The position numbers and the translations under genes are program-made. A stretch of DNA of 64,000 nucleotides, taken from the NCBI GenBank assembly GCA_003054495.1, contig CP028514.1, positions 484,501 to 548,500 on the forward strand, written 5' to 3'. Of the stretch, positions 11,310-42,011 are shown piece by piece (position 1 is the stretch's first letter; the number at the start of each line of letters is the position of its first letter). The stretch comes from Carboxydocella thermautotrophica. GTDB lineage: Bacteria > Bacillota > GCA-003054495 > Carboxydocellales > Carboxydocellaceae. Below the pieces are notes generated by a model. It made no database searches. It was not told the DNA's origin and saw only the letters and a list, made by a program, of their open reading frames with translations.

Positions 11310-11642
11310 TTAGCATTTGGGAAAAGAACAAGGAAAACACTCATGTTCGTGTTCTTCGGGTTCTCTGGTAGCTGCAATCAAAGTGGCGATGGCTTTTTCT
11401 TTGGCTGCACTGGCCAGGAGGAAGCTGTTGGCCAGCCGCACTACCTGAGCCAGTTGCTCGAAGTCACAGGCTTTCACCACCTCCTTACGCAAACGGTGAG
11501 CGATTTCGCAGAAAAGCTGGGCTTCACAGCGGGTAACGGGACCCTGGGTGCCGAGAATGCAGGGCAGGCAATGACGGGTATAGATGGCCTGATTGCAATC
11601 GGGACACTTATAATGGGGATTGTCATCACGTTCTTTGTTCAT
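11310..11642 (-). CDS. Cysteine-rich zinc-motif protein, separated from its ribosome site by a TnpB element
   Basis: 110 residues, MNKERDDNPHYKCPDCNQ onward, with CPDC near the N-terminus, CLPC about 13 residues later and a Cys-rich end (HECFPCSFPKC). The middle is helical (EIAHRLRKEVV, EQLAQVVRLANSF). I do not recognise the family. The start codon lies nine bases from the right end of a TnpB element, and the region directly upstream has only CCAGGT. The gene's original GGAGGT now sits at the far end of the element (13714-13719). Expression is probably reduced unless the element end supplies a substitute. Confidence 0.65.
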   Translation of the reverse strand: MNKERDDNPHYKCPDCNQAIYTRHCLPCILGTQGPVTRCEAQLFCEIAHRLRKEVVKACDFEQLAQVVRLANSFLLASAAKEKAIATLIAATREPEEHEHECFPCSFPKC

Positions 11643-11651
11643 TTTTCTGGA

Positions 11652-11896
11652 ACCTGGTTCAAAAAACTTGACTGTTTTTATCTCCAGCCAAGTTGGCCCC
11701 CAGACCAGGATTTCGCCTCCTTTCCGAATACTTGATTTGCCCCCGCGGGGCAGAGCGACAGGGGACCTCGGCCCGGGAGTTCCACCCGGACGGGAGTACT
11801 GCACCGGTTTATGCTGACCTCCCGGTGGGAGTATAACTCCGCCTCCCGCGTCCTGTTAGGACGCCTACCGGTTTCTCCGACACCGGCTAAACGGGG
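11652..11896 (-). ncRNA. Putative omega (guide) RNA of TnpB copy 1, element right end
   Basis: The 245 bases after the tnpB stop are nearly identical in both copies and do not encode protein. They are rich in self-complementary segments: GCGTCCT/AGGACGC, CTCCC/GGGAG and CCCCGCGGGG. In TnpB systems this region yields the guide-RNA scaffold, and the guide is the flank just outside the right end. Here that flank would read TCCAGAAAAATGAACAAAGA, which is the start of the zinc-protein gene. Function is inferred from the family; RNA ends were not determined. Confidence 0.55.
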
Positions 11897-13585
11897 TCAC
11901 CGTACGGACAGGGCCAATAACTTCAGGTCAGGCCAGACGGAGTTATACGCCTCCTGCTGACACGGAGCAAGCCCGTTATGCACAGAAAGCCTCTCCCCCA
12001 GCCGCCTCAAGCAGGCCCTGACCCCACGGGTCATCCCTTTTCCTTCCCCAGGTCTATCAGGATTAACCTTCCGGGTCAGGTTTTGCTTGATTTGCGATAC
12101 CAGTTGCCTGAGTTCTTCAGTCACCCGTTCCCTGAACCCCATTGCCCGACGACCTATAACCAGTGCCGCCGCGCAATGCACCGGAACGGCGTAACGTTTC
12201 ATATACTTCCAGTAACCTATGGTTGAAGTATGCCGGGGTGATACTAACTTGAAAGGCACCCCTTCTTTTGTCGCTCTCCGATACATTGCTCCTACCATTT
12301 TTGCAAATGGAAAGTTAGAAGCCATGCGGTTAAACTTTTTATTAGTGTCCAGTCTGTCTTTGCCAAAGTTCAGGTTTTCTAAAACAATGGGTTTGCCTGA
12401 AAAGAAAGCTATATCTACCACTACTCTGGCTAAAACGCCTATCAGGTAGCTACGCCGGAAGCTGGAAGCATGGGTTAAGTCTGGTATTCTGATATAAAGA
12501 AAGCCGTTCGGGTAAGGGATAACCTGAAACTCTCCTTCATACTTGCCCAGGTTGCCGGGATAAGGAACACTGAAGCCCTCCGGCCACGGCTCCGGTTGGC
12601 CGGAAGCGCTAACGTTACACAGGGCTACCCCATCAGGGTTTGTGTCTATAGCCAGACAACCTTTAGCAAAGTCCGGTTCCTGCACCCTGACCAGTTCAAA
12701 TGTCAAATGTACCAAATAGCGTCCTTCCAGGGTGCGGATCAGTTCTACCGCATAGGGTAACTTCATGGCCAGCCATATCTGCACCAGTTCCCGGTGTTTT
12801 TCCGGCAGCCACAACTTACCCTCAACCCTGGGGGCCTGGCTCATCCTGGGGCGACCAAGTTTATCTATGCCTGTCTGTTCAGAAAGGTGGGAGAGGGAAA
12901 CCGCCAGGCGGAAGTCCTGTCCGCCATAAAATATCTTAATGTTGGGGTTGCCTCCCTTGCTCTCGTCTCCCCGGGAGTAGAGGCGGTTCCTGCGGGCGTG
13001 CCGCCATTTTTCACGGGCGGCCCGGCCCTGGCAGACCTTTTCCCATAGCCTTCTGCCCCCAAAGACTACCTCTGGTATTGTACCCTTCTCCTGGTAATCC
13101 TTCAGTTCAGCCAGCCTTTTTGCCAGTGAAACCACCCGCTTGTTCCGCCCCTTGACTGCCAGGCGGAGCTTTTCAATAACTTCTGAAGCAGCCCCCTTTT
13201 CCTCTGCCTTCGCCAGTTTCCTCATAGCCAGGCTGAGTTTCTTCCTGGCCCGGCCCAGTTTCTTTTCTGTTTCTTCATTTTCTAACTTCAGCAGTTCTGT
13301 TTGGGAGTCCAGCAGGGCCTGTGCTTTAAGTCTGGCATCATCCGTATAGCGGGAGTTCAGCCCGAAAAGTTCTTGTCCTGACTTCTTGATTTCACGGCGG
13401 GAAGCACCTTCCAGGAGCCGGTTAAAGGCCCACCGCATACAGGCACAGAAGAGACGCATCTCCGTAGTCAGCGGGTCTTCTTCGCCCCTGCTCCACTTCG
13501 AAGACCGGTAAGTCGGGTAAATCTCCGGAAAAAACTCCCCGCACACAGTCATGCTAAATTTGTTCTTCTCGTGTTTCTTTGGCAT
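11897..13585 (-). CDS. tnpB: TnpB-family RNA-guided nuclease (IS1341-type), copy 1
   Basis: 562 residues. A basic N-terminal half includes a long helical, probably coiled-coil stretch (residues 85-170). The C-terminal RuvC-like half has motif I AIDTNPDG (Asp314) and motif II IVLENLNF (Glu403). Where canonical TnpB has a zinc finger (CxxC pairs) and a D-x-NAA third motif, this protein has SPRHTSTIGYWKYMK and VHCAAALVIGRRAMGFRE. The third acidic residue is therefore absent from its usual place; Glu486 is a possible substitute. It is longer than typical TnpB (about 400). It differs from copy 2 by about 20 substitutions and a four-residue gap. Confidence 0.88.
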   Translation of the reverse strand: MPKKHEKNKFSMTVCGEFFPEIYPTYRSSKWSRGEEDPLTTEMRLFCACMRWAFNRLLEGASRREIKKSGQELFGLNSRYTDDARLKAQALLDSQTELLKLENEETEKKLGRARKKLSLAMRKLAKAEEKGAASEVIEKLRLAVKGRNKRVVSLAKRLAELKDYQEKGTIPEVVFGGRRLWEKVCQGRAAREKWRHARRNRLYSRGDESKGGNPNIKIFYGGQDFRLAVSLSHLSEQTGIDKLGRPRMSQAPRVEGKLWLPEKHRELVQIWLAMKLPYAVELIRTLEGRYLVHLTFELVRVQEPDFAKGCLAIDTNPDGVALCNVSASGQPEPWPEGFSVPYPGNLGKYEGEFQVIPYPNGFLYIRIPDLTHASSFRRSYLIGVLARVVVDIAFFSGKPIVLENLNFGKDRLDTNKKFNRMASNFPFAKMVGAMYRRATKEGVPFKLVSPRHTSTIGYWKYMKRYAVPVHCAAALVIGRRAMGFRERVTEELRQLVSQIKQNLTRKVNPDRPGEGKGMTRGVRACLRRLGERLSVHNGLAPCQQEAYNSVWPDLKLLALSVR

Positions 13586-13713
13586 TCCTGATCAGCTCCC
13601 CGAAACCCTGCCGGACTTTGCTGCTTCTCCAATGGATAATAGTTCCATTTTTTTATTGTAGCAAAACAGTTAAATACAATCAATTATAGTCTAGTTTTCT
13701 GAAGCTGCTGCTT

Positions 13714-13719
13714 ACCTCC
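13714..13719 (-). promoter_or_regulatory. Orphaned Shine-Dalgarno (GGAGGT) flanking TnpB copy 1
   Basis: On the minus strand GAAGGAGGT directly abuts the left end of the element. If the element is removed it stands nine bases before the ATG of the zinc-motif gene at 11642. The 60 bases between it and the upstream glycosyltransferase stop also contain an imperfect dyad (CGAG..CTCG at about 13733-13747). Confidence 0.8.
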
Positions 13720-37080: not shown

Positions 37081-38505
37081 TTAGCTCTCCTCCTCAGGCA
37101 GCAGCACTTTCCCCGGATTCATGATATTTTTGGGATCCAGAGCTTTTTTAACTGCCCACATAGCTTTGAGGGCGGAACCGTGTTCCAGCCGTGCATAAGG
37201 AGCGCGGACCAGGCCGACGCCATGCTCACCGGTGGTGGTACCGCCCAGTTCCACGGCCAGACGGTGGATAGCATCAGCCAGACGGTGGGCCTGTTCCACT
37301 TCTGCCGGGTTTTCCGGGTCGATGACCGGGGCGGTATGGAGGTTGCCATCTCCGATGTGGCCATAGACCACCACCTTGACCCCGAATTCTTCCCCCAGGG
37401 CCTGAATGCGGCGCAGCGCCTCGGTTACCTGGGTAAATGGAACCGAAATATCTTCCCCGTGGAAAATCCGGCTGCCATCAGGGCGAACACGGGCAGCGGC
37501 AGTTGCCACCACGCCACGGGCGCGCCAGAGATCAGCCATGCGCTTGGGTTCAGTGGCCCATTCGATGCGCAGGGCCCGCTGTCCCACGATTTGCTGAATT
37601 TGTTCTCCTTCCCAGGCTACACTGGCGGGATTGCCATCCACTTCAAAGATCAGGATGGCCTGGGCATCCACCGGCAGATTCAGTTCCGGGGCGAATTCAC
37701 TTACCGCCCGGATGGCGGAATTATCCATAATTTCGATGCCGGAAGGCAGGATACCGGCGCGATAGACGTCCAGGACAGCGGCAGGAGCATCTTCCAGGTT
37801 GGCGAAAACCGCCATGGCTATGCCCCGGCCTTTGGGTTTGGGCCAGAGGCGCAGGCGGATATTGGTGATCACACCCAGAGTGCCTTCCGAGCCGACAAAA
37901 ACCTTGGTCAAATTGAGGCCGGTAACGCTTTTTACCGCTTTGGAACGGGTGCCACCGGTAATAATCACTTCCCCGTTGGGCAGAACCACTTCCAGGCCCA
38001 GGACATAGTTTTCTGTGGCTCCGTATTTGACCGCCCGCAGGCCACTGGAATTATTGGCTACCATGCCTCCGATGGTGCACATACGGGTACTGCCAGGGTC
38101 AGGGGGAAAGAAAAGTCCATAGGGAGCCAGGGCTTCATTTAGCTCAGCGTGAATGACACCCGGGCGTACCCAGACCTGCATATTGGCGGCATCGATTTCT
38201 TCGATGGTTTTCCAGCGGCTCAGGTCCAGTACGATTCCCCCTTTAACAGGAACACAGCCACAGGTTTCCCCGGTTCCGGCTCCCCTGGGGGTGACGGGAA
38301 TTTCATGCTGCCAGGCCAGTTTCATAATGGCAGCGACTTCAGAAGTAGAGGTCGGGAAAACCACCAGATCAGGTAAAAAACTTTTTTCCCGGGCTAGAAA
38401 AGAACTGTCATAAGAATAGTAAGCCAGCTCCAATGGGCTGGTGAGCACTTTCTCATGGCCAAGCATCCGGATAATTTCTGTTTGGATTTGTTGGGCTAAG
38501 GCCAC
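37081..38505 (-). CDS. glcD: FAD-linked oxidase, glycolate oxidase/D-lactate dehydrogenase catalytic subunit
   Basis: 474 residues of the VAO/PCMH flavoprotein family: VVFPTSTSEVAAIMKLAW, TPRGAGTGETCGC (FAD pyrophosphate loop), GSTRMCTIGGMVANNSSG, VFVGSEGTLGVIT, and the C-terminal substrate/metal region YGHIGDGNLH and TTGEHGVGL. It oxidises a 2-hydroxy acid such as glycolate or D-lactate. The GTG start at 38505 is preceded by GGGAGGGA. The LarA-type racemase gene on the other side of the TnpB element suggests D-lactate, but glycolate cannot be excluded. Confidence 0.9.
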   Translation of the reverse strand: MALAQQIQTEIIRMLGHEKVLTSPLELAYYSYDSSFLAREKSFLPDLVVFPTSTSEVAAIMKLAWQHEIPVTPRGAGTGETCGCVPVKGGIVLDLSRWKTIEEIDAANMQVWVRPGVIHAELNEALAPYGLFFPPDPGSTRMCTIGGMVANNSSGLRAVKYGATENYVLGLEVVLPNGEVIITGGTRSKAVKSVTGLNLTKVFVGSEGTLGVITNIRLRLWPKPKGRGIAMAVFANLEDAPAAVLDVYRAGILPSGIEIMDNSAIRAVSEFAPELNLPVDAQAILIFEVDGNPASVAWEGEQIQQIVGQRALRIEWATEPKRMADLWRARGVVATAAARVRPDGSRIFHGEDISVPFTQVTEALRRIQALGEEFGVKVVVYGHIGDGNLHTAPVIDPENPAEVEQAHRLADAIHRLAVELGGTTTGEHGVGLVRAPYARLEHGSALKAMWAVKKALDPKNIMNPGKVLLPEEES

Positions 38506-38666
38506 CCCGGTTCCCTCCCACGTATATTGAGTCTTATCTTAAAATATTATACGACTACAGCACTCCTCCTGTCTGCCCTAAATGAATAAGTATACAGTAT
38601 TTTGCAAGTCTTGCTCTTTTCTCTGGTTCTGCGATTGGATAAGATGGAAGGTAGAGGGATGGAGGT
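38506..38666. promoter_or_regulatory. Divergent glcD / larA control region, now split by the TnpB element
   Basis: Before insertion this stretch plus eight bases (40741-40748) formed the whole intergenic region. On the minus strand TATAAT (38551-38546) is a likely -10 box for glcD, with no good -35. The plus-strand promoter for larA must lie here too but is not clear by eye. The last six bases, GGAGGT (38661-38666), are the former larA ribosome site. Confidence 0.5.
38661..38666 (+). promoter_or_regulatory. Orphaned Shine-Dalgarno (GGAGGT) flanking TnpB copy 2
   Basis: GGATGGAGGT abuts the element's left end. Excision in silico places GGAGGT eight bases before the TTG start of larA at 40749. 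It is the same hexamer as beside copy 1. Confidence 0.8.
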
Positions 38667-38794
38667 AAGCAGCAGCTTCAGAAAACTAGACTATAATTGA
38701 TTGTATTTAACTGTTTTGCTACATTAAAAGTATGGAACTATTATCCATTGGAGAAGCAGCAAAGTCCGGCAGGGTTTCGGGGAGCTGATCAGGA

Positions 38795-40495
38795 ATGCCA
38801 GAGAAACACGAGAAAAACAAATTTAGCATAACTGTGTGCGGGGAGTTTTTTCCGGAGATTTACCCGACTCACCGGTCTTCGAAATGGAGCCGGGGCGAAG
38901 AAGACCAGCTGACTACGGAGATGCGTCTCTTCTGTGCCTGTATGCGGTGGGCCTTTAACCGGCTCCTGGAAGGTGCTTCCCGCCATGAAATCAAGAAGTC
39001 AGGACAAGAACTTTTCGGGCTGAACTCCCGCTTTGTCGATGACTCCAGACTTAAAGCACAGGCCCTGCTGGACTCCCAAACAGAACTGCTGAAGTTAGAA
39101 AATGAAGAAGAAAATGAAGAAACAGAAGAGAAACTGGGCCGGGCCAGGAAGAAACTCAGCCTGGCTATGAGGAAACTGGCGAAGGCAGAGGAAAAGGGGG
39201 CTGCTTCAGAAGTTATTGAAAAGCTCCGCCTGGCAGTCAAGGGGCGGAACAAGCGGGTGGTTTCACTCGCAAAAAGGCTGGCTGAACTGAAGGATTACCA
39301 GGAGAAGGGGACAATACCAGAGGTAGTCTTTGGGGGCAGAAGGCTGTGGGAAAAGGTCTGCCAGGGCCGGGCCGCCCGTGAAAAATGGCGGCACGCCCGC
39401 AGGAATCGCCTCTACTCCCGGGGAGACGAGAGCAAGGGAGGCAACCCCAACATTAAGATATTTTATGACGGACAGGACTTCCGCCTGGCGGTTTCCCTCT
39501 CCCACCTTTCTGAACAGACAGGCATAGATAAACTTGGTCGCCCCAGGATGAGCCAGGCCCCCAGGGTTGAGGGTAAGTTGTGGCTGCCGGAAAAACACCG
39601 GGAACTGGTGCAGATATGGCTGGCCATGAAGTTACCCTATGCGGTAGAACTGATCCGCACCCTGGAAGGACGCTATTTGGTACATTTGACATTTGAACTG
39701 GTCAGGGTGCAGGAACCGGACTTTGCTAAAGGTTGTCTGGCTATAGACACAAACCCTGATGGGGTAGCCCTGTGTAACGTTAGCGCTTCCGGCCAACCGG
39801 AGCCGTGGCCGGAGGGCTTCAGTGTTCCTTATCCCGGCAACCTGGGCAAGTATGAAGGAGAGTTTCAGGTTATCCCTTACCCGAACGGCTTTCTTTATAT
39901 CAGAATACCAGACTTAACCCATGCTTCCAGCTTCCGGCGTAGCTACCTGATAGGCGTTTTAGCCAGAGTAATGGTAGATATAGCTTTCTTTTCAGGCAAA
40001 CCCATTGTTTTAGAAAACCTGAACTTTAGCAAAGACAGGCTGGACACTAATAAAAAGTTTAACCGAATGGCTTCCAATTTTCCATTTGCGAAAATGGTAG
40101 GAGCAATGTATCGGAGAGCTGTAAAAGAAGGGGTGCCTTTCAAGTTAGTATCACCCCGGCATACTTCAACCATAGGTTACTGGAAGTATATGAAACGTTA
40201 CGCCGTTCCGGTGCATTGCGCGGCGGCACTGGTTATAGGTCGTCGGGCAATGGGGTTCAGGGAACGGGTGACTGAAGAACTCAGGCAACTGATATCGCAA
40301 ATCAAGCAAAACCTGACCCGGAAGGTTAATCCTGATAGACCTGGGGAAGGAAAAGAGATGACCCGTGGGGTCAGGGCCTGCTTGAGGCGGCTGGAGGAAA
40401 AGCTTTCTGTGCATAACGGGCTTGCCCAGAGTGAGCAGGAGGCGTATAACTCCGTCTGGCCTGACCTGAAGTTATTGGCCCTGTCCGTACGGTGA
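38795..40495 (+). CDS. tnpB: TnpB-family RNA-guided nuclease (IS1341-type), copy 2
   Basis: 566 residues, about 96 percent identical by eye to copy 1, with an extra Glu-rich ENEE stretch near residue 105. RuvC motifs I (AIDTNPDG) and II (IVLENLNF) are intact. The third region reads VHCAAALVIGRRAMGFRE instead of a D-x-NAA motif, and no zinc-finger cysteine pairs are present. Both copies are full length with no stops, so selection or recent spread has kept them open. Start ATG 38795 follows GATCAGGA, a weak ribosome site shared by both copies. Confidence 0.88.
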   Translation: MPEKHEKNKFSITVCGEFFPEIYPTHRSSKWSRGEEDQLTTEMRLFCACMRWAFNRLLEGASRHEIKKSGQELFGLNSRFVDDSRLKAQALLDSQTELLKLENEEENEETEEKLGRARKKLSLAMRKLAKAEEKGAASEVIEKLRLAVKGRNKRVVSLAKRLAELKDYQEKGTIPEVVFGGRRLWEKVCQGRAAREKWRHARRNRLYSRGDESKGGNPNIKIFYDGQDFRLAVSLSHLSEQTGIDKLGRPRMSQAPRVEGKLWLPEKHRELVQIWLAMKLPYAVELIRTLEGRYLVHLTFELVRVQEPDFAKGCLAIDTNPDGVALCNVSASGQPEPWPEGFSVPYPGNLGKYEGEFQVIPYPNGFLYIRIPDLTHASSFRRSYLIGVLARVMVDIAFFSGKPIVLENLNFSKDRLDTNKKFNRMASNFPFAKMVGAMYRRAVKEGVPFKLVSPRHTSTIGYWKYMKRYAVPVHCAAALVIGRRAMGFRERVTEELRQLISQIKQNLTRKVNPDRPGEGKEMTRGVRACLRRLEEKLSVHNGLAQSEQEAYNSVWPDLKLLALSVR

Positions 40496-40740
40496 CCCCG
40501 TTTAGCCGGTGTCGGAGAAACCGGTAGGCGTCCTAACAGGACGCGGGAGGTGGAGTTATACTCCCACCGGGAGGTCAGCATAAACCGGTGCAGTACTCCC
40601 GTCCGGGTGGAACTCCCGGGCCGAGGTCCCCTGTCGCCCTGCCCCGCGGGGGCAAATCAAGTATTCGGAAAGGAGGCGAAATCCTGGTCTGGGGGCCAAC
40701 TTGGCTGAAAATAAAAACAGTCAAGTTTTTTGAACCAGGT
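40496..40740 (+). ncRNA. Putative omega (guide) RNA of TnpB copy 2, element right end
   Basis: Nearly identical to the copy 1 right end. Palindromic segments include GCGTCCTAACAGGACGC (about 40526-40542) and CCCCGCGGGG (about 40642-40651). The tip TCAAGTTTTTTGAACCAGGT contains a small TCAA/TTGA hairpin. The adjacent guide would be GGACTGTCTTGGAAGTAAAA, which spans the larA start. Inferred from TnpB biology, not from a known RNA family. Confidence 0.55.
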
Positions 40741-40748
40741 GGACTGTC

Positions 40749-42011
40749 TTGGAAGTAAAACTGGCTTATGGAAAGGATAAACTTCAGGTTGAGCTGAATC
40801 CGAAGGGATATTGCCAGATTATTACACCCAGATCTTTGCCGGGAGTGAGTGATCCTCTAGCTGAGATCAGCCGGGCGCTGGCTGAGCCCATTGGAACTTC
40901 GCCTCTGGCAGAGCTCCTCAGGAAGCGGCAGCCGCAAAAGGTTGTAATTGTTGTCAATGATGTTACCCGGCCCACACCCTATGAGGTGATGTTGCCACCG
41001 CTGGTAGCTGAGCTGGAAAGGGCCGGGATCGGGGATGAACAGGTGACCCTGGTGGTGGCGACCGGGAGTCACCGGGCCAATACGGAAGAAGAAAATCGGG
41101 CCAGCTTTGGGGAAGAAATTTGCCGGCGTTTTAATATCATTAGCCATGACTGTGACCGGGATCTGGTAGCCATCGGACGCCTGTCCGATGGACAAGAGCT
41201 GGTTATTAACCGTCTGGTGGCTGAAGCGGATTTTATCATCACCACCGGCCTGATTACCATGCATTATATCGCCGGGTTCTCCGGTGGCCGCAAATCCATT
41301 CTCCCCGGGGTGGCAGCTCGCAATCTGATTCAGTACAATCACAGCCTCATGACCGATCCCCGCGCCTGTGCCGGCAACTGGCGCACTAATCCGGTCCACT
41401 GGCTGATGCTGGAGGCCGCGCGCCTGGTGGGTGTGGATTTTATCCTCAATGTAGTGACCAATGAGAAAAAGGAAATCGTGCAGGCAGTGGCCGGTGACCT
41501 GGAACAGGCCTGGCTGGCCGGAGTGGAAACCTGCCGCCAGATGAGTATGGTCACAGTACCTCGGGCCGCTGATGTGGTGCTGGTCAGTGCCGGTGGCCAT
41601 CCCAAGGACATCAATCTCTACCAGGCCCAAAAGGCCCTGGAGGCAGCGGCAGCTGCCACCCGGCCGGGCGGAACCATCATCCTGCTGGCCCGCTGCAGGG
41701 AAGGACTGGGCGAACATACTTTTGAAAAATGGATGCTGGAAGCAGAGACTCTGGAAGATATTTTCCGCCGTTTTGAACAGGGGTTTGTCCTGGGCGGACA
41801 CAAGGCCTATGCTATCGCCAGGGTCTTACAGGAAAAACAGGTAATTTTAATCTCAGATCTGGGAAAAGAGTTGACGGAGAGCCTCTTTATGCGTTATGCT
41901 GACAGTATCCCGACTGCACTGCTGCAGGTAGAAGAACAATACGGACAGGATTATTCCCTGCTGGTTATTCCCGATGGCAGCCAGGTGCAGCCGGAAGTTG
42001 CTTCAGCATAG
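40749..42011 (+). CDS. larA: LarA-family nickel-pincer racemase (lactate racemase-like)
   Basis: 420 residues of the DUF2088/LarA family. Motifs at the expected order are VVNDVTRPTP, VATGSHR (catalytic His), TMHYIAGFSGGRKSILPG (His and the Lys that binds the cofactor), YNHSLM and SAGGHPKDINLYQAQKAL. The family racemises lactate or epimerises related 2-hydroxy acids using a nickel pincer nucleotide made by LarB, LarC and LarE; none of those is in the window. It starts with TTG 40749. The region before it now belongs to the TnpB element and offers only CCAGGT, so translation is probably weak. Confidence 0.88.
   Translation: MEVKLAYGKDKLQVELNPKGYCQIITPRSLPGVSDPLAEISRALAEPIGTSPLAELLRKRQPQKVVIVVNDVTRPTPYEVMLPPLVAELERAGIGDEQVTLVVATGSHRANTEEENRASFGEEICRRFNIISHDCDRDLVAIGRLSDGQELVINRLVAEADFIITTGLITMHYIAGFSGGRKSILPGVAARNLIQYNHSLMTDPRACAGNWRTNPVHWLMLEAARLVGVDFILNVVTNEKKEIVQAVAGDLEQAWLAGVETCRQMSMVTVPRAADVVLVSAGGHPKDINLYQAQKALEAAAAATRPGGTIILLARCREGLGEHTFEKWMLEAETLEDIFRRFEQGFVLGGHKAYAIARVLQEKQVILISDLGKELTESLFMRYADSIPTALLQVEEQYGQDYSLLVIPDGSQVQPEVASA

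Follow-up and report, generated by a model that had tools for sequence, protein, structure and literature searches.

A 64,000-nt stretch of the Carboxydocella thermautotrophica genome (GCA_003054495.1, 2.74 Mb; contig CP028514.1, positions 484,501-548,500, forward strand), referred to here as the window, contains two copies of an IS607-family TnpB element. We consider it likely that this is a multicopy element whose target, GGAGG, is the Shine-Dalgarno (SD) core of host genes, and that it moves and persists by the mechanism proposed below. GGAGG is established as the insertion target. We infer that it also serves as the target-adjacent motif (TAM) of TnpB, which is reasonable because the tested IS607 TnpBs use AGGAG or GAGGG (PMC11061315) or GGG (PMC10711439). 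The existence of an IS607 lineage that targets the SD core, with its copies in translation-start regions, is strongly supported and apparently unreported.

Alignment showed that the two window copies are near-identical and have the same ends, with GGAGG 5' of each. Copy 2 occupies positions 38666..40739 (+), from TAAGCAGCAG to GAACCAGG, as placed by the copy alignment and the empty-site boundaries described below. The GGAGG of its left flank (38661..38665, +) is the SD core that larA had before the insertion, as indicated by the copy junctions and by homologous empty sites at three other copies, and larA itself (40749..42011, +; Pfam Lar_N and LarA_C) starts with TTG 9 nt 3' of the right end. 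Copy 1 (11653..13714, -) follows the GGAGG at 13715..13719 (-; CGAAGGAGG), also fixed by the copy junctions. The ATG (11642-11640) of a 110-aa gene with zinc-ribbon-like cysteines (11310..11642, -) is located 10 nt 3' of its right end; no Pfam match was found for the encoded protein. Thus, the position between an SD sequence and a start codon, which the original prediction had assigned to both elements, is correct.

Copies across the source genome were located by three routes (TnpB protein, right-end and left-end searches), and the junctions were fixed place by place, yielding 19 right ends and 18 left junctions that could be read; a further left junction (L076) is truncated. GGAGG was present at the left flank in 16/18 junctions, while the other two read GAAGG and GGTGG. 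In all 19 cases, an intact co-oriented ORF of at least 79 codons, beginning with ATG, GTG or TTG, opens 6-11 nt 3' of the right end, and none of the 19 insertions is intragenic. The 19 right ends precede 19 different genes, and the insertions are therefore independent. The downstream ORFs named by NCBIfam include pssA, an ArsR regulator, prmA, cytidine deaminase, spoIIIAG, pth, rlmB and ruvB, as well as NAD(P)H-hydrate dehydratase/epimerase, a ParA-type ATPase and an FtsK/SpoIIIE translocase; one more encodes an S1 RNA-binding domain protein, which we read as Tex-like. These genes are mostly conserved, and their frames are intact.

An important question is whether GGAGG belongs to the host or to the left end of the element, in which case its near invariance in all copies would be expected. 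To address it, the joined flanks of 18 sites were searched against G107, another genome of the species, found by a phylum-wide search. Three uninterrupted matches represent exact empty sites, which read AAGGAGG+GCTGGTTGGTG, AGGAGG+ATTGACATG and AGGAGG+TGTTTGAAATG. Two of them are 100% identical to the joined flanks over 800 bases spanning the joint; in the third (the occupied L075 vs L192), three adjacent bases differ (GCA vs AAC), and the remainder of the 800 bases is identical. GGAGG is joined to the downstream flank in all three empty sites, which rules it out as part of the element; the exceptions GAAGG and GGTGG in the source genome likewise suggest host sequence, and we give this alternative practically no credence. 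As a separate observation, the GCA-AAC difference that distinguishes the occupied strain from the empty one falls in the cytidine deaminase gene, ~55 nt 3' of the junction.

The boundaries are therefore set as follows: after GGAGG the element begins with T(A/T)GCAGCAG and ends with GAACCAGG, which is followed by any base (N), without target duplication. Two of the empty sites have G or A at the position following GGAGG, which assigns the T there to the element. The base following CCAGG is host sequence according to the three empty sites and the 19 right flanks, among which it varies (T 12, G 3, A 2, C 2). Of the ends described in the original prediction, the T placed in the left flank and the T placed at the right end had to be reassigned; a terminal CCAGGT sharing AGGT with the target is consequently abandoned, since its final T is host sequence. 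The coordinates given there are correct, and the joined flanks of both copies are right, since the host base after CCAGG is T at both window sites. Most of the remaining sites match G107 only as separate halves, which is consistent with the presence of the element there as well. The expectation that empty sites would read GGAGG followed by the start region was met at the sites of three other copies, whereas the empty alleles of the window sites themselves were not seen in G107: the copy 1 site was unmatched, and the copy 2 site gave two separate halves on different contigs with no uninterrupted match.

The same flank was tabulated in relatives, which comprise named ones (in Fervidicola, Thermovorax, Desulfovirgula and several MAGs, metagenome-assembled genomes) and others found through a kinship search. 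GGAGG forms the left flank in 20/20 closer relatives, a count in which one insertion shared by Thermovorax and Fervidicola appears twice, and in 13/14 members of a clade of ~60% identity; the right ends are nearly always GAACCAGG. Together with the junctions of the source genome and the three empty sites, these flanks confirm the SD core GGAGG as the insertion target. A start codon lies 3' of the element at 42 of 58 distinct sites in the relatives. At 16/58 no such start codon was detected downstream, and therefore the GGAGG pentamer suffices as a target, so the stronger claim of recognition of the ribosome-binding site itself is not supported. The copy shared by Thermovorax subterraneus (L097) and Fervidicola ferrireducens (L098) has the same insertion site and the same flanks; it may either be older than the split of the two or reflect genomes that are near-identical at this site.

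These data raise a key question: could the start-site pattern arise by chance, or from the distribution of GGAGG combined with the loss of harmful insertions? In ~203 kb of element-free sequence sampled from the source genome, 103 of 518 GGAGG (~20%) are followed by a start codon and an ORF at the same spacing, and at this background rate 19/19 has a probability of 0.199^19 = ~5e-14; the pattern is not chance. A rough gene call divided the background GGAGG into 76 ribosome-binding sites, 377 within genes and 49 others. Insertion may be specific only for GG or GGAGG and blind to genes, with the start-site pattern due entirely to survivorship after genic copies are purged. This is a serious contender, which we would only narrowly bet against. 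Approximately 75% of the sampled GGAGG (377/502) lie inside called genes, where an insertion would break the gene, and the non-start insertions of the relatives are as expected under survivorship. However, ribosome-binding sites account for only ~61% of the non-genic GGAGG according to the rough call, and 19/19 lies above this expectation; moreover, copies located ahead of genes that are probably essential, pth for instance, persist, so the position must be tolerated.

Several points weigh against our own proposal as well. If the target is combined with selection, the ~61% share gives 19/19 a p of ~8e-5, so that the observed number is somewhat higher than expected; this excess is to be read cautiously because the rough gene call overlooks short genes. 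The 16/58 insertions in relatives lacking a detected downstream start codon fit the pentamer rather than the start site, and an apparent His as the third RuvC residue (see below) makes DNA cleavage by this clade of TnpB uncertain.

The excess of start sites over the non-coding GGAGG supply could also be expected if the ribosome-binding site were recognised as a functional state, e.g. as open mRNA or DNA at translation starts, beyond the pentamer itself. The SDs at the insertion sites are indeed strong, with a mean predicted anti-SD pairing of -11.2 kcal/mol in the empty state vs a median of -7.0 kcal/mol for the window genes. Nevertheless, strong pairing is expected from the GGAGG requirement itself, the relatives have insertions at GGAGG away from starts, and IS607 recombination is DNA-based, with crossover at a GG core and no target duplication (PMC6188088). 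We regard recognition of such a state as quite improbable.

In the reading that we prefer, GGAGG is used as a DNA target. The element lies in the orientation of the gene directly 3' of GGAGG, and joining the flanks restores the empty sites exactly. Insertion would have proceeded by TnpA joining a circular form of the element to the second GG of this target, and a guide RNA made from the right end would use as its guide the host segment from the SD to the start codon; for copy 2, the predicted guide segment (40740..40759, +), based on the IS607 right-end element RNA (reRNA) architecture (PMC10711439), covers the host leader and the first larA codons. TnpB, using GGAGG as its TAM, would then recognise the empty allele. 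Start sites would dominate for two reasons: strong SDs would provide a main share of the non-coding GGAGG, and insertions within genes would disappear. Selection against insertion in genes is probably a further requirement for the concentration at start sites.

Another issue is how the downstream genes are expressed. The region 3' of tnpB (40496..40739, +) is conserved and structured in the right-end alignment (fold z = -2.46) and is a putative reRNA scaffold; no Rfam match was found at E <= 1 in 38500-41000. Its terminal ACCAGG (40734..40739, +) is complementary to a CCTGGT ~50 nt upstream (40683..40688, +), and both arms are invariant, as seen from the right-end alignment and fold. The pairing has no covariation support because neither arm varies; the adjoining stem shows a few compensatory changes. 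The original prediction had suggested that the right end partly replaces the SD, and it may be proposed that this end has evolved to restore a functional SD and so keep translation going: the end is AGG, giving AGGT together with a host T, and the downstream ORFs are intact in 19/19. However, the mean predicted anti-SD pairing of the occupied sites is only -4.1 kcal/mol, near the median of random 16-mers (-3.0 kcal/mol), and ACCAGG is invariant at non-start insertions too and complementary to the invariant CCTGGT. An adapted SD is therefore improbable, and the CCAGG end appears to be better explained by a GG crossover core that also pairs with the CCTGGT of the reRNA.

As pth is generally essential, translation of the downstream genes must persist. 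Read-through that begins in the element or further upstream probably provides their transcripts, with translation from a weakened start. In several relatives, the left end contains a promoter-like TTGACT-N17-TACCAT, which could be a source of read-through transcription; the corresponding TTGATT-N17-TACATT in the left end of copy 2 (38697..38725, +), read directly from the sequence, is weak and was missed by a consensus scan. The reRNA region (40660-40690) also has its own AAAGGAGG, ~65 nt 5' of the right end, and the frame from the CTG codon that follows it is open to the element end, with possible consequences for translation that runs into the host gene.

The assignment to the IS607 family, and not to IS200/IS605, rests on the lost transposase gene. 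Full-length relatives have ~540 bp extra between the left end and tnpB, coding for a protein with a MerR-type helix-turn-helix (HTH) and a Resolvase domain (89.9 bits for Resolvase and 53.1 bits for MerR in L091); from these profiles, it is identified as the IS607 TnpA, a serine recombinase. In copy 2, a tnpA remnant (38732..38794, +; MELLSIGEAAK...) precedes an internal deletion of ~540 bp when compared with L112. In the source-genome copies with a complete left end, most of tnpA is gone, and the length to tnpB is equal in most; in L079, a diverged copy, the part of tnpA that is deleted differs. By this comparison, the source-genome copies are tnpA-deleted IS607 derivatives. GG is found at both ends and in the target, as expected for an IS607 element, and the exact match of the joined flanks to the empty sites agrees with recombination without target-site duplication. 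Membership of IS200/IS605 was rejected, since no Y1 (HUH) TnpA (PF01797) was matched in the source genome and the relatives encode a serine recombinase.

The element is multicopy, though no cognate TnpA gene remains in the source genome. The sole Resolvase-family gene found there is part of another, single-copy IS607 of canonical type (L138, L237; ~2193005-2195100) with a tnpA of 219 aa and a tnpB of 475 aa. Its tnpB has CxxC motifs and the usual Asp, and its tnpA is 37% identical to the tnpA of the relatives. It was examined as a possible helper or comparison, but its ends could not be fixed. From the sequence reading only, it seems to be followed by an SRP RNA-like sequence and a dnaX-like gene.

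The tnpB of copy 2 (38795..40495, +) encodes 566 aa, and that of copy 1 (11897..13585, -), identified as an ORF and aligned with copy 2, encodes 562 aa. The copy 2 protein scored 95.1 bits with NCBIfam guided_TnpB, below the curated cut-off of 100 bits, and 37.8 bits with TIGR01766, above the cut-off of 32 bits; both profiles match 21/21 aligned members. Active TnpB nucleases have a RuvC D-E-D triad. Here, the zinc finger is lacking, D318 and E407 do not vary, and an apparently invariant His (H474), assigned by motif, occupies the RuvC-III position of the 21 aligned members where Asp is usual. The structure model has a pLDDT of 67 overall and <50 around H474; a fold search with it gave Cas12m2 as the best matches, along with other Cas12 proteins, all with low TM-scores. 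Sequence searches of solved structures found no relevant match. The model thus places the protein only in the Cas12/TnpB superfamily, nothing finer, and the D-E-H TnpB may lack nuclease activity or rely on a site of non-standard type. TldR proteins are nuclease-dead TnpB regulators, and Cas12m proteins are non-cleaving effectors. Both are lineages of the same superfamily with altered RuvC residues; the protein studied here, in contrast, keeps D and E, only its third residue is apparently His, and its gene is located in a mobile element.

Several known systems share part of these features. RAGATH-18 elements of the ISFba1 type have an IS607-type TnpB, a purine-rich left-end TAM (AGGAG or GAGGG) and a structured right-end RNA; their TnpBs, 390 aa long on average, are DNA-cleaving proteins that work with the RAGATH-18 RNA (PMC11061315). 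In contrast, the TnpB of the present element is 566 aa long with a D-E-H RuvC and without a zinc finger, no family in Rfam corresponds to its right end, and it is flanked by GGAGG; membership was rejected as no RAGATH-18 RNA was found by Rfam 3' of tnpB. ISXfa1, another IS607 element, also has GG-core crossover, a G-rich TAM (GGG) and a right-end guide RNA, but the nucleotide flanking its right end does not vary and belongs to the scaffold (PMC10711439), whereas the base after CCAGG varies here. Group B IStrons such as BcISt1, the closest parallel in the literature, likewise insert after GG-ending sites, have U as the first base and frequently lose the tnpA part; 58% of 202 insertions in the surveyed IStrons were intragenic and harmless through splicing (PMC4227781). 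Here, 0/19 are intragenic, and an IStron was rejected because no group I intron was matched by Rfam in 38500-41000.

Neither "ribosome" nor "start codon" occurs in the main text of PMC11061315. In the accessible literature, we found no statement of TnpB or IS607 insertion at SD sequences, ribosome-binding sites or GGAGG, which is not proof of novelty, and no paper linking the purine-rich TAMs of IS607 TnpBs to SD cores.

Many insertion sequences require a rare site or damage genes. When scaled from the ~203 kb sample, the source genome has an estimated ~7,000 GGAGG sites, about 15-20% of which precede genes, and insertion at such a site leaves protein sequences intact. It is tempting, although still speculative, to suggest that an IS607 TnpB lineage uses the SD core as both target and TAM in a safe-harbour strategy by which copies come to lie ahead of genes and not within them, that its guides read start regions, that the D-E-H TnpB may bind without cutting, and that the same logic could extend to IS607 TnpBs with AGGAG-like TAMs. 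If so, the guide RNAs would carry host translation-start sequences, and the purine-rich TAMs of other IS607 TnpBs, which resemble SD cores, would be seen in a different light.

Decayed copies are also present. L088 (4001-4046) is a lone left end, and the truncated copies L086 and L087 still have an unaltered right end ahead of a start codon.

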